This document shows, piece after piece, positions 1 to 18,798 of a stretch of DNA of 34,813 nt. The position numbers and the translations under genes were made by a program. The notes under the pieces are model-generated. The model was not told the DNA's origin, made no database searches, and was given only the letters and a program-made list of their open reading frames with translations. The stretch spans positions 1-34,813 of IMG/VR virus record IMGVR_UViG_3300044846_001401. One strand, 5' to 3'. This DNA is from a virus. The stretch's first letter is position 1. Each line of letters opens with the position of its first letter.

Positions 1-241
1 ATTGTCGGTGGTATATTAGCTGGTGTTGTTGCTGCGACTACAGCTGTTCAAGTTGCTGCAATTAGAAAGACAACATTTGATTCTGGTTCTCCTGAGATAA
101 CACCTGCCAACACAGGTGGTGGATCCGGTTCCGGTTCAGCTATCAATCAAGCATCTGGTGGTGGATTTACATCGTTTAATCAAAACCTTGTTGGTACTCC
201 TACTACGACTACGACTGGTGGTGGTTCAACACCATTTGGTT
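1..241. repeat. Left copy of the terminal redundancy
   Basis: Bases 1-241 match bases 34570-34813 except for one extra GGT in the right copy, in the stretch after ACAGGTGGT. The overlap stays in frame through the tape measure gene. This is the expected signature of an untrimmed circular or circularly permuted assembly. A genuine direct terminal repeat of about 240 bases lying inside a gene is possible but less likely. Confidence 0.93.
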
Positions 242-327
242 CTCAAAGAGTTTATGTTGTTGAGTCAGATATAACTAATTCACAAAACAGAGTTAGAACA
301 TTAGAAAGCAACTCAACTTTTGGTTAA
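1..327 (+). CDS. Tail tape measure protein, C-terminal end (continues from the right edge)
   Basis: This frame is open from base 1 and encodes 108 residues before a TAA at 325-327. It is the in-frame continuation of the gene starting at 31867, because bases 1-241 repeat the last 244 bases of the window in the same reading frame. The segment starts inside a Gly/Ala/Val-rich hydrophobic stretch (GGILAGVVAATTAVQVAA) and runs into a low-complexity Gly/Ser/Thr tail with a short poly-Thr and poly-Gly run. It ends with a more ordinary sequence (QRVYVVESDITNSQNRVRTL). Joined across the map junction the protein is about 1009-1010 residues. The protease/scaffold gene starts 32 bases downstream. That the two ends belong to one gene is seen directly; the tape-measure role is inferred from length, coiled coils and hydrophobic segments. 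Confidence 0.85.
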   Translation: MVGGILAGVVAATTAVQVAAIRKTTFDSGSPEITPANTGGGSGSGSAINQASGGGFTSFNQNLVGTPTTTTTGGGSTPFGSQRVYVVESDITNSQNRVRTLESNSTFG

Positions 328-359
328 AAACAAAAGTCATAAAAAAAGACATATAAAGT

Positions 360-1409
360 ATGAATAAAGATTTACCTATATTCGATATCATCATAAGTGA
401 TGATAATCAAGGAGTTGGAATGATATCTCTTGTAGATGAACCAGCAATTGGCGTTGATTGGATTAAACTATCAAAACAAGTAGAGATTTCATTTAAGGCA
501 GATAAAGACAGACAAATGTTATATGGTCCTTTCTTAATTCCTAATATGTTAATTTACAGAAAAGACGACACTAATGGTGAATACTATGTTCGTTTTTCTA
601 AAGAAGAAATAGATAAAATCGCCACAAAGTTCAACGAAGACTTAAATAGTAAGAACATCAATCTGATGCACACTGATACTAAGGTTGATGCTTTCGTGGC
701 TCAGAATTGGGTTATTGAAGGCGAACAAGATAAGTCTCGTAATCTTGGATTTGACCTTCCTGAAGGTTCTTGGTTCGGTGGTGTTAAAATCAAAGACCAA
801 AACTTTTGGAATGAGAAAGTTAAAAACGAAGAAGTTAAAGGTTTTTCAGTTGAGATATTGGCTGATTTACAATTATCACTAAAAAATAAAGAACAAATAA
901 TGGAAAAACAAATCAAATTAGGAACCGCTAATCTTAAAGACGGAATCACCGTTTATTGGGATGGTGAGTTCGGAATGGGTACTGCTATATTTATGGATGA
1001 AGCTCTTACTCAAGCAGCTCCTGACGCTGACCACATTTTAGAAGATGGTACGATTGTTACAACTAAAGATGGTGTAGTAGTTGAGATTCAAGTATCTTCA
1101 ATTGAAGAAGATGTAGCTGAAGAAGATTTAGCAATTGACCCAAACGCAGCACCAGTTGCAGCAGCACTAACATCAGAAGAAGTGAGTTTAATGATTGACT
1201 CAAGATTCTCTGAACTTATGGACGAGATTTCAAGATTGAAAGAGTTAGTAACTCAAAAAGACGAATCAATGAATCAGTACAAAAAAGAAATCGATGAGAA
1301 GTTCTCTACAACACCAGCAACTACAACTATCACTAAAGGTGAAGCTAAAGTAGATGAAAAGTTTGCTAAGATAGAAGCTAGAATCAGAGAGTTCGCTAAA
1401 AACAGATAA
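360..1409 (+). CDS. XkdF-type prohead protease fused to a scaffold-like domain
   Basis: The 349-residue protein has two parts. Residues about 40-175 resemble the XkdF family of putative phage serine proteases, which process scaffold and capsid proteins during head maturation: a GPFLIPNMLIYR-type opening, a conserved HTD in NLMHTDTKVD, and a WFGGVKI...VKGFSVE ending. Residues about 181-349 look like scaffold: an acidic, Ala/Pro-rich middle and a helical, coiled-coil-like C-terminus (SRFSELMDEISRLKELV). An in-frame ATG at 900 (Met181) with an A-rich upstream tract could make the scaffold part alone. Position supports the role: the gene lies between the tape measure and the major capsid protein. 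The exact catalytic residues cannot be assigned by eye. Confidence 0.75.
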   Translation: MNKDLPIFDIIISDDNQGVGMISLVDEPAIGVDWIKLSKQVEISFKADKDRQMLYGPFLIPNMLIYRKDDTNGEYYVRFSKEEIDKIATKFNEDLNSKNINLMHTDTKVDAFVAQNWVIEGEQDKSRNLGFDLPEGSWFGGVKIKDQNFWNEKVKNEEVKGFSVEILADLQLSLKNKEQIMEKQIKLGTANLKDGITVYWDGEFGMGTAIFMDEALTQAAPDADHILEDGTIVTTKDGVVVEIQVSSIEEDVAEEDLAIDPNAAPVAAALTSEEVSLMIDSRFSELMDEISRLKELVTQKDESMNQYKKEIDEKFSTTPATTTITKGEAKVDEKFAKIEARIREFAKNR

Positions 1410-1415
1410 TAAAAC

Positions 1416-2132
1416 ATGGCTACAATTATAGACTACAAAAATAGATCAGTACTAATAGCTAAAGGTATATCAGATGATGGCCAAGCTAATGTTTCTATCA
1501 ATTATGATAGATTTGATAAACTCACTTATATAATCGAGTTAGATAGTGACTACATTAAAATGGATGGTACTGCTTATGTACCGACTCCTATTCCTGATAG
1601 TCAAAAAATTGTTAATGCAAGAATGGCTACACAACAAAGTGGTGGTCTTTCAGGTGGTATAAGAATGAGAGTTACTTTTCAATATCCAGTACCAGTTACT
1701 GACTTAATTGTTAAGAACTTTAAGTTCTTTGCTGATGATGTTGAAATGCCTATAACTGGTTGGATAGATGGAAACGAGGAAGTAATCCCACCAATAAGTA
1801 TTATAAACTCAACTCAAAACTGGAATGTTCAACATACACCATATACGGTTATTGAATTAAATATTACAAACGAAGCTGGTTGGGATAATCCAGTTTTAAT
1901 CGATATGCTTGGTAAAGTATATTCAGTTGAAGCATCAGTTGGTAATGGAACAGGACAAATGTACAGGTCTTCATTCTCAGACGATACTTGGTTGAACACT
2001 GAGATAGTTGAAGAAGGACAATACGCATATGGAATGTGGTATGATACGGTAGAAGATACTTATTATCTTGAACCTGGTTGGTGGGGTGCATATGACCTTT
2101 ACGAGAGAACTGCTACTAATCCACCAGAGTAA
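1416..2132 (+). CDS. Unknown head-region protein between protease and capsid
   Basis: The 238-residue protein starts 6 bases after the protease/scaffold gene and ends 59 bases before the major capsid gene, so it is probably co-transcribed with both. I do not recognise a family. The sequence looks beta-rich and soluble, without signal peptide or membrane segment. It has a proline-rich patch near residue 50 (YVPTPIPDSQ) and a strikingly Trp/Tyr-rich C-terminal third (YAYGMWYDTV, LEPGWWGAYDLY). Decoration protein, head fibre or capsid-assembly partner are reasonable guesses from location only. Confidence 0.7.
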   Translation: MATIIDYKNRSVLIAKGISDDGQANVSINYDRFDKLTYIIELDSDYIKMDGTAYVPTPIPDSQKIVNARMATQQSGGLSGGIRMRVTFQYPVPVTDLIVKNFKFFADDVEMPITGWIDGNEEVIPPISIINSTQNWNVQHTPYTVIELNITNEAGWDNPVLIDMLGKVYSVEASVGNGTGQMYRSSFSDDTWLNTEIVEEGQYAYGMWYDTVEDTYYLEPGWWGAYDLYERTATNPPE

Positions 2133-2145
2133 AAACAAAAACATA

Positions 2146-2169
2146 GTCTTACGACATATTAGTTAAGAC
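2146..2169 (+). promoter_or_regulatory. Possible 5' leader hairpin ahead of the major capsid gene
   Basis: The 59-base gap before the capsid gene contains GTCTTA (2146-2151) and its complement TAAGAC (2164-2169), a 6-bp stem with a 12-base loop. An A-rich tract then leads directly into the capsid ATG. No Shine-Dalgarno sequence is present, as expected for Bacteroidota. The hairpin could stabilise or set the 5' end of the highly expressed capsid message, but a stem this short could be chance. Confidence 0.3.
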
Positions 2170-2191
2170 ACAAAAAATAATAAAAAATAAA

Positions 2192-3097
2192 ATGGCTTTA
2201 ACAGACAATACTATTTTCTACGGAACTGATGCAGAAGGTTTCTTCAAGAAAGTTTTAACAACTGGAGTTGCTAAAAGTGAATTGGCTCTTGTACCAAATG
2301 TAAAGAGCAAAATCAAATTAGCTTACTCAGATTTAGGTAACATTCTTCAAGCTGAAGATTGTTCATTCTCTGCAACAGGAGAAGGTTCATTGAACCAAAA
2401 AACTATGGAGGTTTGTGACCTTAAAGTAAATCTTGAATATTGTGCTACAACATTCGAGGCTAACTATTTATCAGTTCAATTAAGAGCAGGTTCTAACAAC
2501 CCAGAAGCAGTACCAGCATCATACGCAGCATTCGTTGTTGATTATGTAGCTGAAAAAGTTGCATCTGACTTAGAATTGGTTATGTTCCAAGGTAACACAG
2601 CAACAGCTTCTTACCCACTTTCATTATGTGATGGTTTGGTAAAACAATTCTTAGCTGACTCTGATGTAATCGATGTAAGTGCTACAGCATCTACAATCAC
2701 ATCATCTAATGTAATCGGTGAGTTGAACAGACTTTTACAAGCATCACCTGCACAAGTAAGACAACAAGCTAACTTTAAGATATTCGTATCTCAAGAAATC
2801 GCTTTCGCTTACAAACAAGCACAAGCAGCTACAACTGGTGGTTTATTCATGGTTGGTGATAAAGAACTTAACTACTTAGGTTTCAGACTTATCCCTACAT
2901 CTGGATTGTTAGCTAAGCAAATGATTGCTGCTAATATGGATAAAGTTTTCTTCTTAACAGATTTAACATCTGATTGGGATGATATCATCATTATACCACA
3001 AAGAAATATCTCTGGAGCTAGAACTGAAAGATTCGCAACTTCATTGAAATTTGGTGTAAATTACCTTTATGGTAACGAAATCACACTTTACTCATAA
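2192..3097 (+). CDS. Major capsid protein
   Basis: A 301-residue protein, in the size range of compact HK97-fold capsid proteins. It follows the protease/scaffold gene and has the sequence character of Bacteroidota-phage capsid subunits. There is an N-terminal region around VKSKIKLAYSDLGNILQAED, a likely E-loop/spine region rich in Ala and Asn, and a C-terminal region around ISGARTERFATSLKFGVNYL ending in short hydrophobic strands. Codon use is unusually clean and the leader is A-rich, fitting high expression. It assembles the icosahedral shell around the scaffold. The HK97 fold is inferred from context and general pattern; no catalytic motif is expected. Confidence 0.8.
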   Translation: MALTDNTIFYGTDAEGFFKKVLTTGVAKSELALVPNVKSKIKLAYSDLGNILQAEDCSFSATGEGSLNQKTMEVCDLKVNLEYCATTFEANYLSVQLRAGSNNPEAVPASYAAFVVDYVAEKVASDLELVMFQGNTATASYPLSLCDGLVKQFLADSDVIDVSATASTITSSNVIGELNRLLQASPAQVRQQANFKIFVSQEIAFAYKQAQAATTGGLFMVGDKELNYLGFRLIPTSGLLAKQMIAANMDKVFFLTDLTSDWDDIIIIPQRNISGARTERFATSLKFGVNYLYGNEITLYS

Positions 3098-3128
3098 TCC
3101 TAACGGAATAAAAATAAAACTATAAAAT

Positions 3129-3644
3129 ATGGCATGTGTTTCATTTTCAGGAGGTATCGCTAAGGATTGTGCTAATAACATCGGTGGTTTAACTAAAGTT
3201 TATTTAACAGACTTTGATAACATCGCATCTTATGCTCAAGCTGGAGGTACCGTATCAAACATAATAATGGCATCTGCTTCTTACTTTTACGAGTTTGAGT
3301 TCAACAGAAATAGTGCAACATTCACCGAGGATTTATTGAAATCCGTTGAGGCTGGATCTGCTCTGTTCGAAGGAACTTTGACTTTAACAATTCCAAGAAG
3401 AGATGTAGCAAAAAGAAATACTTTGAGCTTATTAACTCAAAGAGATTTAGCAGCAGTAATTAAAGATTCAAATGGTCTTTACTGGTACTTAGGAGCAGAA
3501 GAAGGTATGTACCTTTCTGAATCAACTTCTACATCAGGTACTGCAAAAGCTGACGGTTCTAATTATGTTTTAACTCTTAAATCATTCGAGCAAGAGAGAG
3601 CATACGGATTAACGGCTGGTACAATCAATCCACTTGTAGCTTAA
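3129..3644 (+). CDS. Probable major tail (tube) protein
   Basis: A 171-residue protein that starts 31 bases after the capsid gene and ends just before a strong terminator. It is beta-rich with alternating polar and hydrophobic residues, opens with GGLTKVYLTDFDNI, and has a central EGTLTLTIPRRDVAKRNTL segment. Length, abundant beta strands and position after the capsid gene suit a siphoviral tail-tube subunit, which would stack in rings around the tape measure. A head-decoration role is the main alternative. I see no catalytic motif. Confidence 0.6.
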   Translation: MACVSFSGGIAKDCANNIGGLTKVYLTDFDNIASYAQAGGTVSNIIMASASYFYEFEFNRNSATFTEDLLKSVEAGSALFEGTLTLTIPRRDVAKRNTLSLLTQRDLAAVIKDSNGLYWYLGAEEGMYLSESTSTSGTAKADGSNYVLTLKSFEQERAYGLTAGTINPLVA

Positions 3645-3662
3645 TCACTACAACTTTATAAG

Positions 3663-3695
3663 AAGACCCATCGACATTAGTTGATGGGTCTTTTG
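3663..3695 (+). terminator. Intrinsic terminator after the capsid/tail-tube block
   Basis: AAGACCCATC (3663-3672) pairs perfectly with GATGGGTCTT (3683-3692) around a 10-base loop, and the right arm runs into TCTTTTGTTTTT on the plus strand. It lies 18 bases past the stop of the tail-tube gene. It also lies between convergent genes (the small minus-strand gene ends at 3699), so it may act weakly in the other direction, where the T-tract is poorer. Confidence 0.88.
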
Positions 3696-3698
3696 TTT

Positions 3699-3965
3699 TT
3701 ACATAAAACTATTTAACATCGTAGCAGCTTGTAGGTCTAACATATCAGATCCTAAACAGATTCTATCATATTCATATTGAGTAACTAAAAAGCTACAATT
3801 CTCATAGACATCAAAAAAAGCCTGTTGAGTTTGTAAGTCTGTGAAGTCTTTATCAAAGTTGCTAGAAATTAAAGACATAAGTCTATCATCTGAAAAAAGT
3901 TCATTGAAAAATACTTCTATTGTTTTTTTTGTTTTGTAGTTTTGAGAGTAATTTTGTGTGTTCAT
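3699..3965 (-). CDS. Small unknown protein in an isolated early-type cassette
   Basis: An 88-residue, rather acidic protein, probably cytoplasmic and helical, with no recognised family. It is the only leftward gene between the capsid block and the portal block. The 5' side carries a promoter (3990-4021) nearly identical to those of the 16-19 kb small-gene array. Its leader (AGAAACTATGAAC) matches the array leaders including the MN start. It therefore looks like a member of the early cassette family that moved, or was inserted, into the late region, much like a moron. Function is unknown. Confidence 0.72.
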   Translation of the reverse strand: MNTQNYSQNYKTKKTIEVFFNELFSDDRLMSLISSNFDKDFTDLQTQQAFFDVYENCSFLVTQYEYDRICLGSDMLDLQAATMLNSFM

Positions 3966-3989
3966 AGTTTCTATCTTTATTTGTTCTTA

Positions 3990-4021
3990 CAAAGATATGG
4001 AATCATCTTCGATTTACCAAA
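3990..4021 (-). promoter_or_regulatory. Bacteroidota-type promoter P1
   Basis: On the minus strand TTTG (4018-4021) is followed after exactly 20 bases by TATCTTTG (3990-3997), matching the Bacteroidota primary-sigma consensus TTTG-N19/21-TAnnTTTG. It drives the gene at 3699-3965 through a short leader. It is isolated from the other seven copies at 16.6-18.8 kb. Confidence 0.88.
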
Positions 4022-4071
4022 TAAAAAACAAAGTTTCTTTTAAAAGACATAATAAAAAAGTAAATGCAACA

Positions 4072-4431
4072 ATGATATATTTCACACCAGGAATAACACA
4101 ATCAGTTTGGATGAGCCTAAGAGAATCAGAACCTTATGGATCAACAGCATCTTTCAAATTTACTTTCACTAATGATATCTCAGGTGAGTTCAAAGTCTTT
4201 TACCCAACAGACTTACAACCTACGAATCAGTGGTCGAAGTTTGAAATAGTTGTTGGAACACCTGAAAATCTAGCTACGCCAAAGTTGAATATGAGACCAG
4301 GTATGTGGTCATATAAGGTTGAAGCTGATACGACTATACTTGAGACGGGTAAGATTATAGTTAATGAGACTACTAAAATATGGACAACTTTAGATAGACC
4401 TGCTAAAAACACAAAAGTCCTTAAAAGATAA
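4072..4431 (+). CDS. Small conserved-looking protein upstream of portal
   Basis: I take the ATG at 4072 (119 residues, MIYFTPGITQSV). Starts further upstream would overlap the divergent promoter P1 and add an atypical N-terminus. The protein looks like a small beta-sandwich: SFKFTFTNDISGEFKVF, WSKFEIVVG, PGMWSYKVEADTTILETGKI. It ends with a basic tail (RPAKNTKVLKR). The stop overlaps the portal start (TAATG at 4429-4433), implying translational coupling and a structural or assembly role next to the portal. No family is recognised. Confidence 0.7.
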   Translation: MIYFTPGITQSVWMSLRESEPYGSTASFKFTFTNDISGEFKVFYPTDLQPTNQWSKFEIVVGTPENLATPKLNMRPGMWSYKVEADTTILETGKIIVNETTKIWTTLDRPAKNTKVLKR

Positions 4432-5591
4432 TGGCATTATTTGACTTTATGAAAAGACCTGAACCACCAAAACAGGCACCTCAAATATCTACACAAGATA
4501 TCTTTGAGACTATCAATATGAGAAATATTGATTTACCGATGCCTAAAGAAAGTAAAGGTTATGACTGGGTTTTATTCGGTCCTAACAATCAATTTCCTTT
4601 AGACATCTTAGACTATAGAAATTCTTCAGCGATACACGATAGTATCATTGAATCTAAGACATCTTTAATCGCCGGACAAGGATTTATATTCGGAGAGACA
4701 AGAGAACTCTCTAATCAGTTCTTAGTCGATAATTGGAAGTTAGTTCCTTTCTGGAGAAAACTTGATAAAATCTTTTGGATGGTTGCAAGAGACCAACAAA
4801 CATTTGGTTATTCTTGTTTTGAGATAATCTATTCTATGGATAGAACTCGTATCGCTGATATGAACTGGATTGATGCATCAAGAATTGCCTCTGGTAAAAG
4901 AGATGAGTTTGGTAACATTGATTGTTATTACTACTCTGATAACTGGAAAGACACAAGAAACAATCCACCAAGAAAAATTGAAGCTTACGATCCTAATAAA
5001 GATGGTATGAGACAATTGATGTTTATCAAATATGATGATAACAATATGGACTACTACGCACTACCTAACTACTACTCTGCTTTGAGATGGATTAAAGCCG
5101 ACTCATTAATGGGTGAGTATAACTTAGCAGCAATCAATAACGGATTCTCACCTTCTATCGTGTTTAAGTTTTATAAGAAACCTACACCAGAAGAAAGAAG
5201 AATGAATGCTGAGTCAATAAAGGCACAACACGGAGGTCCAAGAAATGCTGGTAAAGCTTTAATATTCTATGCTGATGGTAAAGACTTAGCACCAGATGTA
5301 GATACATTAGATGCTACAAACATTGACCAAAGACTTATTCAAGTAGCAGACCAAATCGTACAACAAATAATCACAGCTCACAGAGCACACCCACAACTAT
5401 TAGGAATTCAAACACCAGGTAAGTTAGGATACTCATCTGAGTTACTTCAGTCTTGGGAAATCTTTAACGCGATGGTTATTGAACCAGAAAGAAAGTTGAT
5501 TATGGATTCATTCAGACAAGTTTTAATCTACAATGGTGTTGTAAGAGCTGAGATAGAACCAACGGTACCAATAAAAATAATTCAAGGATAA
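4431..5591 (+). CDS. Portal protein
   Basis: The 386-residue protein forms the dodecameric DNA-entry ring at one capsid vertex and the docking site for terminase. Features fitting the portal family are the N-terminal GPNNQFPLDILDYRNSSAIH, an early RDQQTFGYSCFEIIYS strand, a WIDASRIASGKRDEFGNID wing segment, and a long C-terminal helical region (QRLIQVADQIVQQIITAH followed by LGYSSELLQSWEIF) typical of the stem and crown. At 386 residues it is short for a portal but normal for compact Bacteroidota-phage versions. Start and stop overlap neighbouring genes by one base (TAATG) on both sides. Confidence 0.82.
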   Translation: MALFDFMKRPEPPKQAPQISTQDIFETINMRNIDLPMPKESKGYDWVLFGPNNQFPLDILDYRNSSAIHDSIIESKTSLIAGQGFIFGETRELSNQFLVDNWKLVPFWRKLDKIFWMVARDQQTFGYSCFEIIYSMDRTRIADMNWIDASRIASGKRDEFGNIDCYYYSDNWKDTRNNPPRKIEAYDPNKDGMRQLMFIKYDDNNMDYYALPNYYSALRWIKADSLMGEYNLAAINNGFSPSIVFKFYKKPTPEERRMNAESIKAQHGGPRNAGKALIFYADGKDLAPDVDTLDATNIDQRLIQVADQIVQQIITAHRAHPQLLGIQTPGKLGYSSELLQSWEIFNAMVIEPERKLIMDSFRQVLIYNGVVRAEIEPTVPIKIIQG

Positions 5592-6163
5592 TGGAAGATT
5601 CACTTTTTATAGATGATAACTATCTAAAACAATATTCACCTTTAGGTAAGTCAATTGATGTTGATGAGATATACCCGTTTGTATCTTCTGCTCAAGATGT
5701 TTATATACAAGATGTGTTAGGAACACCTTTGTATAATGACTTTCTAACAAAGACATCAAATATGATTGTCGGTACAGGTGTAACATTCTCTTCTTACGAA
5801 TGGAACTTGTTAAACTTATGTTCTAAAGCTTTAGTTTATTGGACGACTTATATGTCTTTACCACACATCTACTTAAAGATTAGAAATGCTGGTGTGATTA
5901 AGTCACAATCTGAGAACACAACAAACTCTGATTTATCTGAGATGAAGTATCTAAGAGAAGAGATGAAGAACTTAGGTGAGTTCTGGAACACAAGATGTGT
6001 TAATTACTTATGCCAGTATAGTGTTAATTTTCCATTATATCAAGCAGCTTCAACAGATATGTATCCGTCGATTAAACAATATGACGCAGACATTTACATT
6101 GAAGATGGTATATCAGATTTAACATTTGAAGAACTTAGGTTCCTAAAAAAGTACTTTGGCTAA
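5591..6163 (+). CDS. Head-tail connector (adaptor) protein
   Basis: A 190-residue, mostly helical protein translated directly from the portal stop (TAATG at 5589-5593). The pattern is that of the small adaptor family following portal genes in Bacteroidota phages: an N-terminal DDNYLKQYSPLGKSIDVDEI, then IQDVLGTPLYNDFLTKT, and a central aromatic helix (LVYWTTYMSLPHIYLKI). It should form the ring joining portal to neck. Assignment rests on position, helix pattern and length; the fold cannot be proven from sequence alone. Confidence 0.65.
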   Translation: MEDSLFIDDNYLKQYSPLGKSIDVDEIYPFVSSAQDVYIQDVLGTPLYNDFLTKTSNMIVGTGVTFSSYEWNLLNLCSKALVYWTTYMSLPHIYLKIRNAGVIKSQSENTTNSDLSEMKYLREEMKNLGEFWNTRCVNYLCQYSVNFPLYQAASTDMYPSIKQYDADIYIEDGISDLTFEELRFLKKYFG

Positions 6164-6164
6164 A

Positions 6165-6416
6165 ATGGATATGTTACCGATACTTACAATTATTGGAGGC
6201 GTGATGCTTTCTGTAATAGGATATTTCTTAAAGAAAACAATGGAAGACCTCAAAGATACAAAAGGGATTGCTTACACTACGAAAAACGAGTTAGATATCT
6301 TAAAGAACGACCACAGCAACAAGTACAATAATCTTACTGAAAAGTTTGATGAACTTAAAAGTGCTGTGGTTGATCTAACAAAAGAAATCAAAGAATTAAA
6401 CAGAAGAGTTAAATAA
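6165..6416 (+). CDS. Small membrane/coiled-coil protein, holin-like candidate
   Basis: I prefer the ATG at 6165 (83 residues) to an in-frame TTG at 6156, because it begins one base after the previous stop. Residues about 3-22 form one hydrophobic membrane helix (LPILTIIGGVMLSVIGYFL). The rest is a charged heptad-type coiled coil ending in KELNRRVK. One membrane helix plus a coiled coil resembles XhlA/class-III holins or spanin-like factors. However, the location between connector and fibre genes and the absence of a recognisable endolysin leave lysis unproven. A virion membrane-contact or tail role is also possible. Confidence 0.65.
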   Translation: MDMLPILTIIGGVMLSVIGYFLKKTMEDLKDTKGIAYTTKNELDILKNDHSNKYNNLTEKFDELKSAVVDLTKEIKELNRRVK

Positions 6417-6997
6417 TGGCTATAAAAAACTTATTAATCAAAAACAATCACTACGAAAATGTTAGATTAACTATCGTTGGTTCTCAGAGTGGTGTTGAAC
6501 ACTACTATTATACTGAGGCTAGTGGTAACAGATACTACTATACAGCTTTAGGTGGTACAGCTGCTCCTGATATGGAGTCAGCTACTTTTGATTCTTTTCT
6601 AAGTTTTACTATGTCTGGTGCTGTTACATATCAGTACAACCTTATTCCTATGTTACCAGAAGAATCTGTTATGATAGAAACAAATGTTGTTGGTATCAAT
6701 TTAGATGGTTCTAAAGGTTATGTGATGAAGTCATTTGGTGGTTATAGACACAATGGTTCATCATTATCTTTAATTGGTGGTTCAATAGATTACACAACTA
6801 AAACAGACTTTACTACAGCTTCAGCTTCTTTTGTTGTTGTCGGTACTCAATCAGTTGCTTTAAGAGTAACTGGTCAAACAAGTCAGACAATAGACTGGAA
6901 TGTTTATATTAGATATACAAAAGGATTTCACGCTTTAACATTTACTGGACCAGTACCACCACCAAAACCAATATACCCACAGAGTCCATCTTCTTAA
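6416..6997 (+). CDS. Unknown, probable tail appendage protein
   Basis: The 193-residue protein starts on the stop of the previous gene (TAATG). It is Ser/Thr/Gly/Tyr-rich and beta-strand-like (HYYYTEASGNRYYYTALGG, TFDSFLSFTMSG, VALRVTGQTSQTIDWNVYIR) and ends with a proline-rich tail (GPVPPPKPIYPQSP). This composition and its place directly before the large collagen-like fibre suggest a fibre-attachment or tip protein. No catalytic motif and no signal peptide are visible. Confidence 0.65.
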   Translation: MAIKNLLIKNNHYENVRLTIVGSQSGVEHYYYTEASGNRYYYTALGGTAAPDMESATFDSFLSFTMSGAVTYQYNLIPMLPEESVMIETNVVGINLDGSKGYVMKSFGGYRHNGSSLSLIGGSIDYTTKTDFTTASASFVVVGTQSVALRVTGQTSQTIDWNVYIRYTKGFHALTFTGPVPPPKPIYPQSPSS

Positions 6998-7035
6998 AAG
7001 ATAAACAATCTGAAGAAAAAATGATATAATTAGTA

Positions 7036-10000
7036 ATGAACAAAGACAATTACATATACAAGAAATTACCTGATGGTAGATATATCAAAGTCCTTGATAA
7101 CAAGGATGAGAACTTCGCATCAGCTCAAGAAGATGCTAAGATGGCAAGTGATATTAGAGAACTATTACAAGGTTCTCAAGGTGAATCTGGTACTTCAGGT
7201 ACTTCAGGTAAAGATGGATCTGATGGTATCAATGGTAAAGATGGTCAAATCGGTAGAACTGGTTTAACTGGACCTCGTGGTATAAACGGAACAAGTGGAA
7301 CTGACGGTTCTTCAGGAACATCTGGTATAAATGGAGAAGATGGTACATCAGGAGAGCAAGGTCCGAGAGGATACAAAGGAGAGAAAGGTGATAGAGGAGA
7401 TAAAGGTTTTCCTGGTATGCCTGGTCCGTCAGGTCAAAACGGTACTGATGGTGGCTCAGGAACAAACGGAACATCTGGTTTAGATGGTTTATCTGGTACA
7501 TCTGGTATAGATGGTACAAGTGGTACTGATGGTCTTAATGGAACATCTGGTTCTTCAGGTGAAAGCGGAACATCAGGTGAGTCAGGAACCTCAGGTGAGT
7601 CAGGAACTTCAGGTGAGAGTGGTACAAGTGGTGAATCTGGTACATCAGGTGAGAGTGGTACAAGTGGTACAAGTGGTGAATCAGGAACTTCAGGTGAAAG
7701 TGGAACCTCAGGTATAGATGGTACAAGTGGTGAATCTGGAACAAGTGGTTCAAGTGGTGAATCAGGTAGTTCAGGTGAAAGTGGTACTTCTGGTTCAAGT
7801 GGTGAGAGTGGGTCATCTGGAACCTCAGGTGAATCAGCTTTAATTTGTTCGCCATTCTTAGCAGGTGACTATTACTTTCAAGCAGTAGGTACGACTTACA
7901 ACGGACTTTCTTATACAAATATGTCTTGGGGTCCTGGTCAAATACTAAGTGTTTATGCTCCTGGTGATGATATTATACAATATATGTTAGTTAGTGGATA
8001 TACCGCCTCAACAGGTGTTATAGATGCGATTATAACATATTCTCAAAATCCTGGTTATAAAACAATTGGTGGTGTTAATCTTTGTCTTTCTGGACAACAA
8101 GGTGTATCTGGTACATCAGGTAGTTCTGGTGAAAGCGGTACATCAGGTTCAAGTGGTGAAAGCGGTACATCAGGTGAAAGCGGTAGTTCAGGTGAAAGTG
8201 GCACATCAGGTTCAAGTGGTGATAGTGGTACTTCAGGTGAAAGTGGAACATCAGGTTCAAGTGGTGAAAGCGGAACATCAGGAGAGTCAGGAACCTCAGG
8301 AGAGTCAGGAACTTCAGGTGAAAGTGGTACTTCAGGTACATCAGGTGATAGTGGTACTTCAGGTGAGTCAGGAACTTCAGGTGAAAGTGGTACTTCTGGT
8401 TCAAGTGGTGAATCAGGAACAAGTGGTGAGTCAGGAACAAGTGGTGATAGTGGTACTTCAGGTACTTCTGCTTCATTTTATTACATTGCTACTTGGGTAG
8501 CTGGTTCTTATGTTGCTAACACGGTTGCAATATCTACAATAGATGGTAACACTTATGTTAGTAATCAAGTAATAACAAATGTATATGATGATCCATCAAT
8601 AAACACCACAGAATGGGACTTGTTTATATTAGCTGGTGATAACGGAACATCTGGTACAAGTGGTACAAGTGGTGAAAGTGGTACTAATGGAACATCAGGT
8701 GAATCTGGTACAAGTGGTGAGTCTGGTACATCAGGTAGTTCAGGTGAAAGTGGTACATCAGGTAGTTCAGGTGAGAGTGGTACTTCTGGTGAGTCAGGAA
8801 CAAGTGGTGTTAGTGGTGCTAACGGAACTTCTGGTATTAACGGAACTTCTGGTTCAAGTGGTCATCAAGGTAATAGAGCGGGATTACAATATGAGTTTTC
8901 AACTTCAACCAGTAGTGGAAATCCTGGAAGTGGTGTATTAAAATATAACAATAGCACTTTATCATCTGTTACTCAAATTATTTTATCAACAACAACTTTT
9001 GATGCCTTATCAGTTGCTAACATTTTAGACTTAATAGATGATAGTAATTCAACAAATAAAGCAATAGTAACAATTACAAGTAATATAAATGGTGATGGAA
9101 GTTTCTTTTCTTTTCAAGTAACAAGCATCACAACACACGCAAGTTATTATGAGTTAAATGGAACTTTTGTTGCGGGTTCGGCTTTTACTAATAATGAAAT
9201 TATAGCATTCAATTTTACACAAACTGGTAATTCAGGAACTTCTGGAACTTCTGGCACATCAGGTGTATCAGGAACTGCTGGAACAAGTGGTACATCAGGT
9301 GTTAGTGGAACTGCTGGAACAAGTGGTTTAACTGGTACATCAGGAACATCTGGTGAAAGTGGTTCATATACTTTTATTACAGAGGATACTATAGAACCAA
9401 CACTTACTATTGATGTCTTTGATATGGATAATAATTCTACTATATCAGTAACACCTTCAACAATTAATTTAACATCTGGTATTGCTGAAACTAAATATGG
9501 AACTGGGGCAGATGGTAGTAAATTTATTAGTTCTAAAATAACAGACCCTGATGACGCAACAAGATATGATGAGATAAGATTAGAACCAAGTGACTTTCAA
9601 ACAGCAGATTATGGAACTATGATACAATCAGTTGATGGAACTAATTCTTTAAGTTCATCACTTACTTTAACACCAAATTATACAATTATGTATAGTTCGG
9701 ACGGGCTTCAGGGATGGGTGCAGGTAATAAATGGAGTTCCATCTATTGTTGGTAATGGTGCTTTTGGTGAGACAAGAATTAATGTTAATAACGCTAACGA
9801 AGGAGCAATAGAATTATTAGCAACTGGAATTAAAATTGGTTCTGGTGGTAGTATTGCATATAATATACCAGTAACAAATGGTTCGGAAGGACAAGTTTTA
9901 ACAGCTCACGATGATGGAACATCAACTTGGGAAACACCAAGTGGTAGTTCAGGAACCTCTGGTGAGTCAGGAACCTCTGGTGAGTCAGGAACATCAGGTG

Positions 10001-10803
10001 AAAGTGGAACCTCAGGATTAACAGGAACATCTGGAACAAGTGGTCAGAACGGAACATCGGGTTCATCTGGTATAACTGGCGCAACTGGAGCGACTGGTTC
10101 AGTTGGTGATGCAGGTACAAGTGGAACATCATTTTATGGAACTACAAGTGGCACATCAGGATTAACTGGATTATCTGGATCAGCTGGATCAGCTGGAACA
10201 TCTGGAACATCTGTCGCTGATTATAAAATAGGAGGAGCACATGCGCTTGTTACACCAACAAATGGAACATCATCTACTGCAAATACTGCATATGATGTGG
10301 CAATAGGTTGTCCTGGAAAGATAAACCAAGCTCAAACAATAAATGTGATTAGATTATTTCCATTCATACCAGCAACTGATTTTATATGTGGTACAATGTC
10401 TATTGAAGTTGTGACGGCAATTGCGTCATCATTAACAAAGATACTTATATATAATGAAGGAACACCAACGGGTTTTAACGGACAACCTGGTGCTAAGGTT
10501 CTTGAAACAACATCATTTGATGGTTCAACTACTGGAATTAAGACCTTTGCTACAAGTATATCATTCGAGAGAGGAAAACTATATTGGATTGGTGCATGGT
10601 CTAATATTGGAACATTAGGTTTAAGGTCAATACCATCAGCAAACACGATAAATATAGGGTCTGCACCTAGTGGAAACTCTGGATATTGGAACCATTATTC
10701 ATTAACATTAACATTTAATAATGCGGCAAACTCTGCTCCAAGTATATTTAGTGGTGGGGCACTAGCTCAAGCACCAGCCGCGTTAATTCAAATGAGAGCG
10801 TAA
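7036..10803 (+). CDS. Large collagen-like tail fibre
   Basis: The 1255-residue protein alternates Gly-X-Y triplet tracts with globular islands. Residues 1-45 are a likely attachment domain. Triplet tracts cover about 46-267, 355-478, 535-612, 732-775 and 970-1060. The first contains classic charged collagen sequence (GPRGYKGEKGDRGDKGFPG); later ones are mostly GTS, GES, GSS. Islands lie at about 268-354, 478-535, 612-731 and 775-968, and the C-terminal head at 1061-1255. The island at 478-535 recalls a small CBM5/12-like carbohydrate-binding module, with Trp near both ends and a central NTYVSNQVI. Collagen-like rods trimerise to form long fibres, so this is probably a side or tip fibre binding the host surface. 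Head and islands are unidentified. Confidence 0.85.
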   Translation: MNKDNYIYKKLPDGRYIKVLDNKDENFASAQEDAKMASDIRELLQGSQGESGTSGTSGKDGSDGINGKDGQIGRTGLTGPRGINGTSGTDGSSGTSGINGEDGTSGEQGPRGYKGEKGDRGDKGFPGMPGPSGQNGTDGGSGTNGTSGLDGLSGTSGIDGTSGTDGLNGTSGSSGESGTSGESGTSGESGTSGESGTSGESGTSGESGTSGTSGESGTSGESGTSGIDGTSGESGTSGSSGESGSSGESGTSGSSGESGSSGTSGESALICSPFLAGDYYFQAVGTTYNGLSYTNMSWGPGQILSVYAPGDDIIQYMLVSGYTASTGVIDAIITYSQNPGYKTIGGVNLCLSGQQGVSGTSGSSGESGTSGSSGESGTSGESGSSGESGTSGSSGDSGTSGESGTSGSSGESGTSGESGTSGESGTSGESGTSGTSGDSGTSGESGTSGESGTSGSSGESGTSGESGTSGDSGTSGTSASFYYIATWVAGSYVANTVAISTIDGNTYVSNQVITNVYDDPSINTTEWDLFILAGDNGTSGTSGTSGESGTNGTSGESGTSGESGTSGSSGESGTSGSSGESGTSGESGTSGVSGANGTSGINGTSGSSGHQGNRAGLQYEFSTSTSSGNPGSGVLKYNNSTLSSVTQIILSTTTFDALSVANILDLIDDSNSTNKAIVTITSNINGDGSFFSFQVTSITTHASYYELNGTFVAGSAFTNNEIIAFNFTQTGNSGTSGTSGTSGVSGTAGTSGTSGVSGTAGTSGLTGTSGTSGESGSYTFITEDTIEPTLTIDVFDMDNNSTISVTPSTINLTSGIAETKYGTGADGSKFISSKITDPDDATRYDEIRLEPSDFQTADYGTMIQSVDGTNSLSSSLTLTPNYTIMYSSDGLQGWVQVINGVPSIVGNGAFGETRINVNNANEGAIELLATGIKIGSGGSIAYNIPVTNGSEGQVLTAHDDGTSTWETPSGSSGTSGESGTSGESGTSGESGTSGLTGTSGTSGQNGTSGSSGITGATGATGSVGDAGTSGTSFYGTTSGTSGLTGLSGSAGSAGTSGTSVADYKIGGAHALVTPTNGTSSTANTAYDVAIGCPGKINQAQTINVIRLFPFIPATDFICGTMSIEVVTAIASSLTKILIYNEGTPTGFNGQPGAKVLETTSFDGSTTGIKTFATSISFERGKLYWIGAWSNIGTLGLRSIPSANTINIGSAPSGNSGYWNHYSLTLTFNNAANSAPSIFSGGALAQAPAALIQMRA
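7165..10215 (+). repeat. Discontinuous GGT-ACA-TCA-type triplet repeat tracts
   Basis: Five tracts of 9- and 18-base units encode GTSGES and GTSGSSG. Synonymous codons change from unit to unit (GGT/GGA, TCA/AGT/TCT, ACA/ACT/ACC, GAA/GAG), so the protein repeat is far more regular than the DNA. That pattern is expected if selection keeps the rod while limiting slippage and recombination. The boundaries are those of the first and last tract; unique islands interrupt them. Confidence 0.9.
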
Positions 10804-10817
10804 AAAATAAAATAGAT

Positions 10818-10994
10818 ATGGCAACAGAATTAGTAAGAAACGAAATATATGACGAGAATGGACTTGTTAGAGTAGAGTTTATTGAAAGAGAGGTTGAGAA
10901 CATAGAGGAACAGATTGCTAGCAAAGAGCAAGAGTTACTGAATATGTATAATGAACTCATAGAACTTAAAAGCAGGTTAGAAAATAACCTGTAA
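10818..10994 (+). CDS. Small coiled-coil protein downstream of the fibre
   Basis: A 58-residue, strongly charged protein starting 14 bases after the fibre stop. It opens with MATELVRNEIYDENGLVRVE. The rest is one amphipathic helix with heptad spacing (VENIEEQIASKEQELLNMYN, then IELKSRLENN). It has no Cys and no membrane helix. It could be a fibre chaperone or trimer clamp, given position and size, but this is inference. The last codons and stop lie in the hairpin at 10973-10991. Confidence 0.68.
   Translation: MATELVRNEIYDENGLVRVEFIEREVENIEEQIASKEQELLNMYNELIELKSRLENNL
10973..10991 (-). terminator. Possible terminator hairpin at the convergent gene junction
   Basis: CAGGTTA (10973-10979) pairs with TAACCTG (10985-10991) around a 5-base loop. 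Read leftward, the hairpin is followed by CTTTTAAG, a short T-tract, so it could end the leftward operon finishing at 11019. Read rightward there is no T-tract. It overlaps the last codons of the 58-residue gene. A 7-bp stem with four T is weak. Confidence 0.4.
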
Positions 10995-12137: not shown

Positions 12138-12154
12138 AATTAAACTATTTCTTT

Positions 12155-15671: not shown

Positions 15672-15890
15672 TTAAGAAATAAGGTTATGGTTATTAATAA
15701 ACTCTTTTACAAATTCTTTTTCAGATTCTGAAATCATCATAAGTGCTTCTCCTGTGTAAAGTCCTGTGTGAAGTAAGAATAGGTCTTCATACCTTCCAGA
15801 AAAAACATCATTGTATGATGTCTGATTATCGATGCAAAATATAACTGATGCAATCTTCTTTGCTAAATTTTTTGGCTTTCTTTTTTTCAT
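15672..15890 (-). CDS. Small unknown protein, last gene of a three-gene early unit
   Basis: A 72-residue protein with a very basic start (MKKRKPKNLAKK) and an acidic C-terminal helix (SESEKEFVKEFINNHN). No family is recognised. It follows the 85-residue gene by 5 bases and is the distal gene of the unit read from promoter P2. It borders the candidate structured RNA, so a leftward transcript would run straight into that region. Confidence 0.65.
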   Translation of the reverse strand: MKKRKPKNLAKKIASVIFCIDNQTSYNDVFSGRYEDLFLLHTGLYTGEALMMISESEKEFVKEFINNHNLIS

Positions 15891-15895
15891 ATTTT

Positions 15896-16153
15896 CTAAT
15901 TGTTTAACAAATTCTTGGAACCGAGTATCTTGTTAATCTTATCTTCTCTTTTCTGTTGTATAAACATACCTTTAAGACCATCAGCCTCAGCTTGATGATA
16001 ACCAGTTAATGTTTCAAGTGCTTCTATGTTTGCTTGAATGTAGTGAATGCCAGGATTTTTGGCAATAACATCATCAAGTATCTCAAGATACCAGTCGAAG
16101 TAGTCGTCACCAACGACTGACTTCATTCTTTCTAAAACTTCTTTGTCCGTCAT
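15896..16153 (-). CDS. Small unknown helical protein
   Basis: An 85-residue protein, predicted mostly helical (DYFDWYLEILDDVIAKN, then ANIEALETLTGYHQAEADGL), with a Lys/Arg-containing C-terminus. No family is recognised. It starts 2 bases after the stop of the 144-residue gene and is 5 bases from the next, so all three share promoter P2. Confidence 0.65.
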   Translation of the reverse strand: MTDKEVLERMKSVVGDDYFDWYLEILDDVIAKNPGIHYIQANIEALETLTGYHQAEADGLKGMFIQQKREDKINKILGSKNLLNN

Positions 16154-16155
16154 AA

Positions 16156-16590
16156 TTACTTTCTTTTCTTTTTCTTTGGTTGAACAGGTGCTAAAACATG
16201 AGTAACCTCAGCAATAACACACTCACAATCTGCTGGCTGATAACCTAAAGCCATAGACAAAGTATCATAAGATGTCTTACCTTCTTGAGTATAACCATAG
16301 AAGTTTTTTGATTCATCTTGGTTTCTATACACATGTAGTTTAACAATCTTAGCACCACAAGTATCGTGAGTTACAGAGATAGTTTTAGAAAACTTGAATC
16401 CTTGTGACTCATAAAGAGCAATAGACTCGTTAAACTCGTCTCTCGTATCGATAGCCATAATCTTATCACAATCTCTGTGGTAAAAGTACCAAGCCTTTTT
16501 GATACCATCTTGTTTGTCGTTCTTGAAAAATTCAACGACTTCTTTTCTACATTCTACTAAGTTAATAACTGCAAATCCTAAATTGTTCAT
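16156..16590 (-). CDS. Unknown protein, first gene of the P2 unit
   Basis: A 144-residue protein with mixed alpha/beta character. The start MNNLGFAVINLVECRK leads into an aromatic, charged region (KKAWYFYHRDCDKIMAID). Further on are a THDTCGAK segment and a paired-Cys PADCECVI, and the tail is KKKKRK. Cysteines are scattered rather than in a clear zinc motif. No family is recognised. Promoter P2 lies 25-56 bases upstream and its class A leader runs to the ATG. An early-expressed host-interaction role is plausible from promoter type only. Confidence 0.66.
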   Translation of the reverse strand: MNNLGFAVINLVECRKEVVEFFKNDKQDGIKKAWYFYHRDCDKIMAIDTRDEFNESIALYESQGFKFSKTISVTHDTCGAKIVKLHVYRNQDESKNFYGYTQEGKTSYDTLSMALGYQPADCECVIAEVTHVLAPVQPKKKKRK

Positions 16591-16614
16591 AATGTTTGTG
16601 TTTTAATGTTTTTG

Positions 16615-16646
16615 TAAAGATACGGATTGTTTTTTAATCTGCCAAG
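16615..16646 (-). promoter_or_regulatory. Bacteroidota-type promoter P2 (class A leader)
   Basis: On the minus strand the -33 region CTTGG (near 16642-16646) is followed after 20 bases by TATCTTTA (16615-16622), one base from TAnnTTTG. The spacer GATTAAAAAACAATCCG is shared with the other copies. The stop codon of the 88-residue gene (16634-16636) lies inside this spacer, so promoter and coding sequence overlap. Confidence 0.82.
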
Positions 16647-16900
16647 ATTTCACACTCAAAATTTAGGATATATTCACCTGTCTCATTTTGTAGGTCTTGG
16701 TGTAAATCATCATCAATAGAACCTAAATCATCATCATAGTCGATAACAACCTCACGAATAGTACCGAGATACTCAATCTCTTTATCATAAATTTGTTGAT
16801 AGGTCATATCTTCTGACTCTAACTGGTCAAGAATATACTCTCGTTGATAACCTAAGTCGTCCTCGAATTGATACTCAATGTTGTAAAATCTAACTTTCAT
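16634..16900 (-). CDS. Small acidic unknown protein
   Basis: An 88-residue, highly acidic protein (long runs of Asp/Glu such as VIDYDDDLGSIDDDLHQDLQ), with alternating strand/helix pattern and no recognised family. Strongly acidic small phage proteins can be DNA mimics or inhibitors of host nucleic-acid enzymes, but that is only a possibility here. It has its own promoter (P3). Its final codons (ILAD and stop) are formed by the -33 element and spacer of promoter P2. Confidence 0.68.
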   Translation of the reverse strand: MKVRFYNIEYQFEDDLGYQREYILDQLESEDMTYQQIYDKEIEYLGTIREVVIDYDDDLGSIDDDLHQDLQNETGEYILNFECEILAD

Positions 16901-16924
16901 AATGTCTGTGTTTTAATGTTTTTG

Positions 16925-16956
16925 TAAAGATACGGAATGTTTTTTAATCTACCAAA
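16925..16956 (-). promoter_or_regulatory. Bacteroidota-type promoter P3 (class A leader)
   Basis: TTTG (16953-16956 on the minus strand), a 20-base spacer and TATCTTTA (16925-16932). It directly abuts the stop codon of the GNAT-like gene (16957-16959). The leader AAAAACATTAAAACACA(G/A)ACATTATG is shared with P2 and P5. Confidence 0.85.
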
Positions 16957-17481
16957 TTACTTTGATAAAAAAGATAATGTTCTATCGAAGTCGTCATTGC
17001 TAGAAAGAGCCATGTGAATGTGGTTTGCATTGTACTTACCATATTTTCTGAAGCCAAACTTTCTAAAGAAAGCCGCTTGTTGAGCCACAGGCATTTCTCT
17101 TCTATTTGAGCCAGTACCTACTGAACCGATACACTCAAGGATTAAAGTACCAGCTTCACCTAACTCTTGAAAAGATGAAATGTAAGCTGCGAACACAATT
17201 CTCATAAGAGAAGTACCATTACCTTTTGTGTTTGAAATGATACGAGAGATATCAACTTTATTCTCAAATGATTTGAAGTTGATGTGAGAACCATCAGGTA
17301 GAGATATAGAACAAACCTCAGAAGAGTAACACTTTGTGCCTTTACCAGAACTAACCATAGTAATCATATCGTAAGTGTCTATGGTAACAATAGTGTTATC
17401 GTTAAAGCTTTCTTTGATGAAGCTAACCATAGAGTTGTATGTGTTGTTGTTCTCGAATTTTGTGATGTTATCTAAGTTCAT
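16957..17481 (-). CDS. GNAT-like N-acetyltransferase fold protein
   Basis: The 174-residue protein is the size of a single GNAT domain. A candidate acetyl-CoA-binding motif A lies at residues 85-95 (TKGNGTSLMR, followed by helix IVFAAYISSF). Strand LILECIG is at 113-119, and a characteristic C-terminal helix/strand QQAAFFRKFGFRKYGKY at about 134-150 matches the usual AxxFYxKxGF of the family. The Q/RxxGxG/A loop is degenerate (TKGNGT), so activity is uncertain. It is by far the largest gene in the early array and has promoter P4. Acetylation of a host protein, tRNA or toxin-like target would fit early expression, but the substrate is unknown. Confidence 0.58.
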   Translation of the reverse strand: MNLDNITKFENNNTYNSMVSFIKESFNDNTIVTIDTYDMITMVSSGKGTKCYSSEVCSISLPDGSHINFKSFENKVDISRIISNTKGNGTSLMRIVFAAYISSFQELGEAGTLILECIGSVGTGSNRREMPVAQQAAFFRKFGFRKYGKYNANHIHMALSSNDDFDRTLSFLSK

Positions 17482-17518
17482 AATTTTAAGTTTTAAGTGT
17501 TTATCGTTATTTGTCTTA

Positions 17519-17550
17519 CAAAGATACGGAATGTTTTTTAATCTACCAAA
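17519..17550 (-). promoter_or_regulatory. Bacteroidota-type promoter P4 (class B leader)
   Basis: TTTG (17547-17550 on the minus strand), a 20-base spacer and a perfect TATCTTTG (17519-17526), then the class B leader TAAGACAAATAACGATAAAC. The spacer contains the stop codon (17538-17540) of the 43-residue gene. Confidence 0.9.
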
Positions 17551-17669
17551 GGATGACCGTGTCTTTTCATCATCTTTTTAAGTTTATCATTGTACTTTTT
17601 AATTGGCATCCTTGTGATACCAGCCCATAATGTAAATAAAGAGAATTCAATGTAGTTTAAATTTTTCAT
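17538..17669 (-). CDS. Micro-gene encoding a 43-residue basic protein
   Basis: ATG at 17669 and TAA at 17538-17540 define a 43-residue protein: MKNLNYIEFSLFTLWAGI, then a basic tail containing KKYNDKLKKMMKRHGHP. The N-terminal half is hydrophobic enough for a membrane-associated helix. It is supported as a real gene by its private promoter P5, by the standard class A leader reaching its ATG, and by its stop falling exactly where the other array genes stop. Its last codons (LVD) are built from the P4 -33 element. Function unknown. Confidence 0.68.
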   Translation of the reverse strand: MKNLNYIEFSLFTLWAGITRMPIKKYNDKLKKMMKRHGHPLVD

Positions 17670-17693
17670 AATGTTTGTGTTTTAATGTTTTTG

Positions 17694-17725
17694 TAAAGAT
17701 ACGGAATGTTTTTTAATCTGCCAAA
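17694..17725 (-). promoter_or_regulatory. Bacteroidota-type promoter P5 (class A leader)
   Basis: TTTG (17722-17725 on the minus strand), a 20-base spacer and TATCTTTA (17694-17701), followed by the same leader as P2 and P3. It abuts the stop codon of the 93-residue gene (17726-17728). Confidence 0.85.
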
Positions 17726-18007
17726 TTATATTGAGATATTCCACTCATCAAGATAATCTTTTTGGTCTTCAACCTCGTAGGCTAAGTTGATACCACCACT
17801 ATTCACAACTTTCTCAAACATATATTTAATCTCTTCCATTTGAGGCTCAATAACCTCAACTTTAGTATCCCATAGTTTTGCAATGTGGTCGGCATAAAAC
17901 CAGTTTAGTAATAAAACTCTATCGTCTTCATTTACAACATGCATTACCTCTGTAATAGACATTTCGCTAATTAGTTCTCTCAATTGATTCATCTTTTCTA
18001 TGTTCAT
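17726..18007 (-). CDS. Small acidic unknown protein
   Basis: A 93-residue acidic, helical protein (MNIEKMNQLRELISEM, VMHVVNEDDRVLLLNWFYAD, VIEPQMEEIKYMFEKVV). No family is recognised and no metal or catalytic motif is visible. Monocistronic under promoter P6; its stop lies immediately before the -33 element of P5. Confidence 0.68.
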   Translation of the reverse strand: MNIEKMNQLRELISEMSITEVMHVVNEDDRVLLLNWFYADHIAKLWDTKVEVIEPQMEEIKYMFEKVVNSGGINLAYEVEDQKDYLDEWNISI

Positions 18008-18046
18008 AGTTTCTATTTTTTTAAGTGTTTATCGTTATTTGTCTTA

Positions 18047-18078
18047 CAAAGATACGGATTGTTTTCTAATCTACCAAA
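18047..18078 (-). promoter_or_regulatory. Bacteroidota-type promoter P6 (class B leader)
   Basis: TTTG (18075-18078 on the minus strand), 20 bases, TATCTTTG (18047-18054), followed by TAAGACAAATAACGATAAAC. It abuts the stop of the 113-residue gene (18079-18081). Confidence 0.9.
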
Positions 18079-18420
18079 TTATTTTTGACCATTCTTTTTA
18101 CAAATCTGTAAAACATCATTTAGATAGTCATATACTTCATCAGCCTTAATCAAGCCAGAGTTTTGTAGAATAAATTCATCTATGCTGATTAGTTTTGCCA
18201 AGTCAAGACATCTTCTTTTAGAGTATATACGAGTACCTTTCTCACCTTTTATCAAACTGATTAATATACCTGATGACTTACCTGTTGGTGTGTTGTTTGT
18301 ATAGAAGAAGAACTTTAATTCATTCTCTACAGCAACTACAGAGAACCAGTTTTTGTTTTGTAAATCCATTTGCTCTTTAATCAATCTTGAAAATGCTTGT
18401 GTTGGTGTTTCGTTGTTCAT
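18079..18420 (-). CDS. Small unknown protein
   Basis: A 113-residue protein with a helical start (TQAFSRLIKEQMDLQ) and a beta-rich middle (WFSVVAVENELKFFFYT, GILISLIKGEKGTRIYSKRR). A helical end (EVYDYLNDVLQICKKNGQK) follows. No family is recognised. It is read from promoter P7 with a class B leader, and its start (MNNE) extends the MN shared by several array genes. Confidence 0.67.
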   Translation of the reverse strand: MNNETPTQAFSRLIKEQMDLQNKNWFSVVAVENELKFFFYTNNTPTGKSSGILISLIKGEKGTRIYSKRRCLDLAKLISIDEFILQNSGLIKADEVYDYLNDVLQICKKNGQK

Positions 18421-18451
18421 AGTTTCTAAATGTTTATCGTTATTTGTCTTA

Positions 18452-18482
18452 CAAAGATACGGAATGTTTTTTAATTCTCAAA
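18452..18482 (-). promoter_or_regulatory. Bacteroidota-type promoter P7 (class B leader)
   Basis: TTTG (18479-18482 on the minus strand), 19 bases, TATCTTTG (18452-18459). The spacer (GAATTAAAAAACATTCCG) holds the stop codon of the 89-residue gene (18471-18473), whose last residues FEN are encoded by promoter bases. Confidence 0.87.
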
Positions 18483-18740
18483 GCTTTCTACATACTTTTT
18501 AGCATATCTTTGAAGATTTTCTGAGAAGCCTTCAAACATAAACTGAGCATATCCATCAGTAATGAACTTGTTGAATAACGCCTGTAAGTCATTATAGCAG
18601 AACATCCAAAAGTCAATAATCGTATCACCATCAAGGCAACCATCTATCGATAGTGCTTTCATAGTATCATCATCTATCCCCTGAATGAATGTGTAGAGTT
18701 GAACATTTGTTCCATCAATTAAGTCAATTTGTGTTTTCAT
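18471..18740 (-). CDS. Small acidic unknown protein, first gene of the array
   Basis: An 89-residue acidic protein (IDLIDGTNVQLYTFIQGIDD, then FWMFCYNDLQALFNKF), with a helical C-terminus (NLQRYAKKYVESFEN). No family is recognised. It is the promoter-distal boundary gene of the leftward array, under P8. Its coding end overlaps promoter P7. Confidence 0.67.
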   Translation of the reverse strand: MKTQIDLIDGTNVQLYTFIQGIDDDTMKALSIDGCLDGDTIIDFWMFCYNDLQALFNKFITDGYAQFMFEGFSENLQRYAKKYVESFEN

Positions 18741-18767
18741 AGTTTCTATCTTTCTTTATTTGTCTTA

Positions 18768-18798
18768 CAAAGATACATAATCTTTTCTAACCACCAAA
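18768..18798 (-). promoter_or_regulatory. Bacteroidota-type promoter P8 (class B leader)
   Basis: TTTG (18795-18798 on the minus strand), 19 bases, TATCTTTG (18768-18775). The spacer differs from the other copies more than they differ from one another, as expected for an end member with no upstream array gene to encode. Leader TAAGACAAATAAAGA is class B. Confidence 0.86.

Follow-up and report, generated by a model that had tools for sequence, protein, structure and literature searches.

Morons are expressed from the prophage and benefit the lysogen, and T4-type phages are said to carry promoter early stem-loop cassettes (PeSLs), reportedly described by Arbiol in 2010 and by Comeau in 2014. 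A moron of lambdoid phages is an open reading frame (ORF) with its own promoter and terminator between two genes that are adjacent in relatives (PMC1524935), PeSLs are treated as elements of T4-type phages (PMC4503421), and archaeal viruses are described in which anti-defence genes are marked by early promoters (PMC11065993). Here we analyze a virus record from IMG/VR (IMGVR_UViG_3300044846_001401; 34,813 bases, the whole of which we call the window), in which a single reverse gene with its own early-type promoter lies between a terminator and the portal block, as a preliminary description of the sequence had reported. We read this cassette, with a probability of roughly 0.85, as a single-gene early transcription unit (promoter, leader and ORF) that has entered a site at which phages of this group repeatedly carry accessory genes.

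Matches in Pfam and PHROGs show late blocks on the plus strand of the window that encode a terminase, a portal, a protease and further structural proteins. The ends of the window (1-241 and 34570-34813) match each other over approximately 240 bases apart from one difference of 3 bases, as would be the case for a terminally redundant or circularly permuted genome. Long GTSG/collagen-like repeat proteins are encoded at 7036-10803 (+), with a match to Pfam Collagen at 1.1e-75, and at 22409-23737 (+). Among named phages the portal search recovered only two, P12024S and P12024L of Nonlabens (27.5% identity), and the hosts of the group are probably flavobacteria. No integrase or recombinase match was seen among the window proteins scanned (Pfam, PHROGs), and none of 37 pattern candidates for a portal relative in the bacterial genome collection was confirmed. 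Expression of the cassette outside lytic growth, which had been raised earlier, thus finds no support.

The slot is framed by two late operons. Gene A (3129..3644, +; 171 aa, phrog_19091 at 7.6e-22) is followed by the intrinsic terminator of its operon (3661..3694, +; 15 pairs, 6 GC), which has the longest stem among the 13 terminator-like sites in bases 1-20000. On the other side a late-promoter-like element, AAAACAA-N15-ACATA (4025..4051, +), adjoins the -33 box of the cassette and precedes gene B (4072..4431, +; 119 aa), the first gene of the portal operon. The earlier placement of the cassette directly before the portal block is correct for the block; the 119 codons of gene B intervene before the portal gene itself (4431..5591, +; PF04860 at 4.2e-10, phrog_33693 at 1.4e-30). 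The cassette gene runs in reverse (3965..3699, -; 88 aa, pI 4.1), and the T tail of the terminator plus one A reads TTA, the TAA stop codon of the cassette on the opposite strand. By reading the sequences we found the same use of a T tail as the stop of a reverse gene in the window and in three relatives (L002, L016 and L018). The hairpin at 3661-3694 serves both the gene A operon and the cassette, and a similar hairpin is present in the empty junctions shown. At a site that follows the terminator of one late operon and precedes the promoter of the one downstream, the insert would harm neither operon: it points backwards and would borrow the existing hairpin as its own 3' end.

The cassette promoter (3990..4021, -) is of the Bacteroidota type, with a -33 TTTG at 4021-4018, a spacer of N20 and a -7 element, TATCTTTG, at 3997-3990, and it fits the Bacteroidetes -33/-7 consensus as given in PMC6847099. 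As proof of a promoter the bare pattern TTTG-N17-22-TAnnTTTG is weak, with 7 matches against 2.0 expected and a maximum of likewise 7 in 200 first-order Markov randomisations, and a sigma-70 promoter scan was uninformative (72 found, 77.5 expected). A two-block profile was built from seven promoters of the early array of small genes at 15672..18798 (-), which share one promoter family (18798, 18482, 18078, 17725, 17550, 16956 and 16645), with the junction site left out. With this profile the junction promoter scores 36.3 bits and ranks eighth, just after the seven array sites, and the remainder of the best 22 scores are one- or two-base shifts of the same eight sites. Given that the best whole-genome score in 100 randomised genomes has a maximum of 18.9 bits (mean 10.1), the original observation of a promoter family common to the cassette and the array, whose nearest promoter (16645) is 12.6 kb off, holds. 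The MN protein start that had been listed beside it is not distinctive, being found in 4 of the 8 array genes translated. The cassette would be read by the host sigma-A RNA polymerase soon after infection, a timing that we infer from sequence, and expression independent of the late operon, as originally suggested, would fit the promoter and terminator. Next to the array, the stretch at 15134-15672 has low coding potential and contains a hairpin (15143-15163) that is terminator-like on both strands.

We compared the junction across relatives. The portal alignment search yielded 44 loci, of which L027 is the same contig as L028, leaving 43 contigs and, with the window, 44. The order of gene A, gene B and portal is kept in all 44. 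The gap between A and B measures 98–153 nt in 37 of them (empty) and 390–1388 nt in the other seven (filled), namely the window, L002, L016, L018, L023, L033 and L034. Gene content differs among the filled junctions; BLAST within these contigs found no junction gene in another junction, and the cassette gene of the window is at the junction of none of the 43 relatives. The comparison of junctions with and without the cassette, proposed in the preliminary description, thus bears out a site of variable content, and the opposite picture, in which all relatives carry the gene at this place behind a diverged promoter, was looked for and not found. On a portal DNA tree (43 rows, 36 of them different; L027 and L046, whose portal is cut off, left out) the filled or empty state changes at least six times, four of these forced by well-supported branches, with a bootstrap that is not fully settled. 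Filled rows cluster on this tree as they do with shuffled labels (184 of 500 as low), and in one near pair, L016 (filled) and L017 (empty), the portal sequences are 96.8% identical over 900 bases. Searching again with gene A as query gave 63 loci, among them no new close relative and 19 distant contigs (L097-L115), which were inspected by eye and kept outside the 44; this collection thus seems to contain few further members of the close group. We found no account of this slot in the literature on flavobacterial and Bacteroidetes phage early promoters, a search that mostly did not cover subscription papers, so it may be published.

The boundary on the late-promoter side is also recurrent. In five of the seven filled junctions (window, L002, L016, L018 and L023) the TTTGG of the -33 box starts exactly at the end of AATAAAAAACAA, and CCAAAT at that position is absent from all listed empty junctions that have the box. 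The gene nearest the late promoter is in reverse orientation in 7/7. Similar AAAACAA...ACATA sites occur at window positions 327, 2132 and 18930, at other late operon starts, and altogether the window has 5 plus-strand sites, 4 of them at operon starts, where 0.095 are expected, a count that is partly circular because the motif was picked by eye on the window itself. The constant 15-nt spacing across relatives is the better test: the strict motif is found in 23 of the 44 contigs, with a spacing of 15 nt in 22 and 14 nt in one. Among the 21 contigs without the strict motif, 6 have the AAAACAA box with CCATA for ACATA and 15 have no box within the 90 bases examined. This element is likely the late promoter of the phage. 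Elsewhere in the window, a 185-aa protein (12615-13172, -) has a weak sigma-factor/HTH match (phrog_1190 at 0.0059; PF04297 at 0.0056, below its cut-off), and we would guess that it could activate the putative late promoter.

The contents of the other junctions vary widely. L023 (8352-9543) carries an adenine-methyltransferase-like (EcoRI-methylase-like) gene (PF13651 at 1.6e-7, phrog_799 at 1e-30) together with a convergent gene of 213 aa that belongs to no known family. The -33 box of L033 is imperfect, and L034 holds several genes with promoters that do not abut the boundary; two of its junction genes (2675-3467, -) have N-termini that by eye resemble export signals. The junction of the distant L111 holds a gene of 105 codons in reverse orientation, preceded by a TATCTTTA box. 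Two further distant junctions bear on the strongest alternative, that the site is a homing-endonuclease hotspot at which empty copies would be cut and repair would copy in the filled junction with its neighbouring genes: L097 has an HNH-like gene (10595-11137; PF13392 at 1.9e-5, 24.7 bits against a cut-off of 24.8) and L104 a GIY-YIG/NUMOD3 gene (3530-4192; NUMOD3 at 4.9e-20). However, the Pfam scan gave no endonuclease match for the window gene or for the nine proteins encoded at the junctions of the six other filled close relatives, and we consider a hotspot unlikely.

The cassette has one convincing relative, which at 52% identity is the first gene of the early array of G010. There it sits just upstream of the terminase genes, and the junction of G010 itself is empty. 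With one convincing relative the direction of movement, from array to junction or the reverse, is unrooted. The window protein alone as query retrieved no relative in the viral contigs (10 candidate stretches) and none in phage records, and the two-row alignment query retrieved G010 and L079 from the viral contigs (139 candidates). The L079 stretch (4213-5574; 28% identity) lies, by eye, inside a terminase-like ORF and has the string QAFFDVY in common with the query; it is probably a chance match, and its E-value is unfair because the stretch was picked by that 7-residue pattern. None of 166 candidates in bacterial genomes was a relative of the cassette, and nothing else in the window resembles the cassette gene. 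The search for homologues of junction genes covered 17 relatives' contigs (G012 to base 38000 of 44471, G004 to base 20000 of 20372) and, for the other 26, the locus; an alignment search of 21 short records gave no match. For the junction gene of L033, a relative at 47% identity lies among the early genes of G015, and the G015 junction is again empty.

From the promoter and leader catalogue, three unlikely sites (in G006, G015 and G019) were removed before comparison. For L033 the promoter and leader of the G015 relative are the best match (0.52, the next being 0.37 and the best of 100 shuffles 0.29). The promoter and leader of the window cassette are closest to arrays of its own clade (G002_4605 at 0.66, W_18798 at 0.57) and not to those of the G010 homologue, so this gene and its promoter may have moved separately. 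The L016 and L018 junctions match each other in promoter and leader at 0.89 while their proteins are unrelated, which would fit a gene placed behind a resident promoter. A 25-base early leader, TATCTTTGTAAGACAAATAACGATA, common to the window array and the L002 junction occurs in only two viral contigs, in three copies in the G002 array and at the L002 junction. As the L033 and window patterns differ, a gene may travel with its promoter or land behind a resident one. Taken with the 37 empty junctions, the other genes at the remaining six and the relative in the G010 array, the description of the cassette as acquired or displaced is supported. Transposition from the phage's own array may be one origin, but nothing similar to the gene was found elsewhere in the window. 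Since the cassette is also lower in G+C (28.1%) than the eight array genes measured (29.2–35.7%), acquisition from a relative is as likely.

The cassette gene lies below the phage as a whole in G+C (35.0%), and only 0.9% of 267-nt windows are lower; its G010 homologue is low as well (27.4% against 32.1%). The protein has no family match in Pfam, NCBIfam or PADLOC, its sole PHROGs match is phrog_22831 at E = 0.078, and comparison with solved structures gave E-values that were all above 0.6. The structure prediction (mean pLDDT 43.6) is too poor to use, and an RNA-family search of the window gave no match. Over 86 codons the cassette and its G010 homologue differ at 26, 23 and 46 sites in codon positions 1, 2 and 3, and this third-position excess indicates that the protein is under selection. 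This, together with the conservation of the ORF in G010 and a promoter type that stays constant while the genes change, speaks against the idea that the unit is an antisense or insulating element between late operons with an incidental ORF. That idea draws on the orientation of the cassette, which faces gene A and points away from the portal operon, and on L108, in which a junction insert of approximately 270 nt (about 3474-3790) carries, besides a promoter-like site, a second hairpin of terminator type and lacks an ORF of 60 codons; we regard the idea as quite improbable. The L108 insert is absent from the similar contig L109 and is perhaps a small RNA, and its RNA-family matches are all below gathering scores. 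Least probable of all, by a small step, is that gene and promoter were always resident at the junction and were lost in most relatives: the window and L002, both filled, group as sisters in the portal tree, and this would fit an old occupied state of a small clade, but their junction genes are unrelated, most junctions are empty, six others hold other genes and the cassette homologue lies in another phage's array.

Insertion of an early unit at a recurrent site raises the question of the route. L002 and the empty L004 are 97.8% identical in gene A and 99.7% in gene B, and the L002 portal is nearer to that of the window (96.5%) than to that of L004 (90.0%); given this mosaic, exchange near the junction probably happened. 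No scar or recombinase was found. Units would be gained, lost and replaced by recombination among related phages with flanking late genes and early-promoter sequence in common. Array content differs between near relatives: of the 9 and 8 genes of the window and its near relative G002, only 3 are common by BLAST (43, 144 and 85 aa). Where an array promoter follows a gene, the stop codon of that gene lies directly before the next -33 box or 12–13 nt into it in 6/6 cases in the window (16634-18798, -) and 5/5 in G002, and TTTGGYAGATTAA, the -33 box with the bases that follow, often encodes the ...L-A/V-D-stop of the preceding array gene. Stop positions are looser in G010 (0, -2, -4 and -16) and G012 (13 and 13); for two boxes in G010/G012 and for one in the window there is also a second candidate ORF end, and the first array box in each of the window, G002 and G012 has no gene upstream. 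This overlap is a plausible recombination seam: because TTTGGYAGATTAA often doubles as the stop of the previous gene, any two units could be joined there without extra DNA. The late junction would act as a second port, with the -33 box abutting the late promoter and the stop supplied by the T tail of the terminator. Whether the early promoter is in this way a handle for seamless, recombinase-free exchange of single early genes between two ports, array and late junction, is a tentative proposal, and we hold it to be rather doubtful.

Given that the gap is usually empty and sometimes holds a different small early-type gene, it looks like a docking site for gain and swap of accessory genes. We call the junction a moron-like slot: it takes in single early genes as accessory units that come from related phages. 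For a phage group that is uncultivated it offers a marked place, easy to search, with contents that vary even among near relatives, and the overlap of stop codon and promoter suggests how phages might exchange genes one at a time with no recombinase dedicated to the task. The cassette product most likely adjusts the host early in infection. That it inhibits host defence is conceivable, at somewhat less than even odds, by analogy with the single small genes with a conserved early promoter described for archaeal viruses in PMC11065993. Should proteins for counter-defence or host takeover indeed be encoded by early units, such genes could be collected simply by means of the frame of terminator and late promoter.

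Compared with the described systems, the cassette resembles a moron as an ORF with its own predicted promoter, between genes that directly follow each other in 37 of 44 contigs, and in a G+C content that deviates from that of the phage. In contrast to a moron, it would use the pre-existing terminator of a neighbour instead of bringing one, its promoter belongs to the phage's own early-promoter family, there is no sign of lysogeny and its known relative is in a phage and not in a host genome. With the anti-defence genes of archaeal viruses it has in common the small single gene under a conserved early promoter, although here the virus is a bacterial phage, no Aca-type regulator was identified and a counter-defence role is only a guess. 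Unlike the T4-type phages that carry PeSLs, the window phage is small and not T4-like; its array seams have no stem-loop (no minus-strand terminator-like site lies within 15672-18798), and the stop of the upstream gene abuts or lies in the next promoter. What it would share with PeSLs is that repeats of an early promoter provide the common sequence between shuffled accessory genes.
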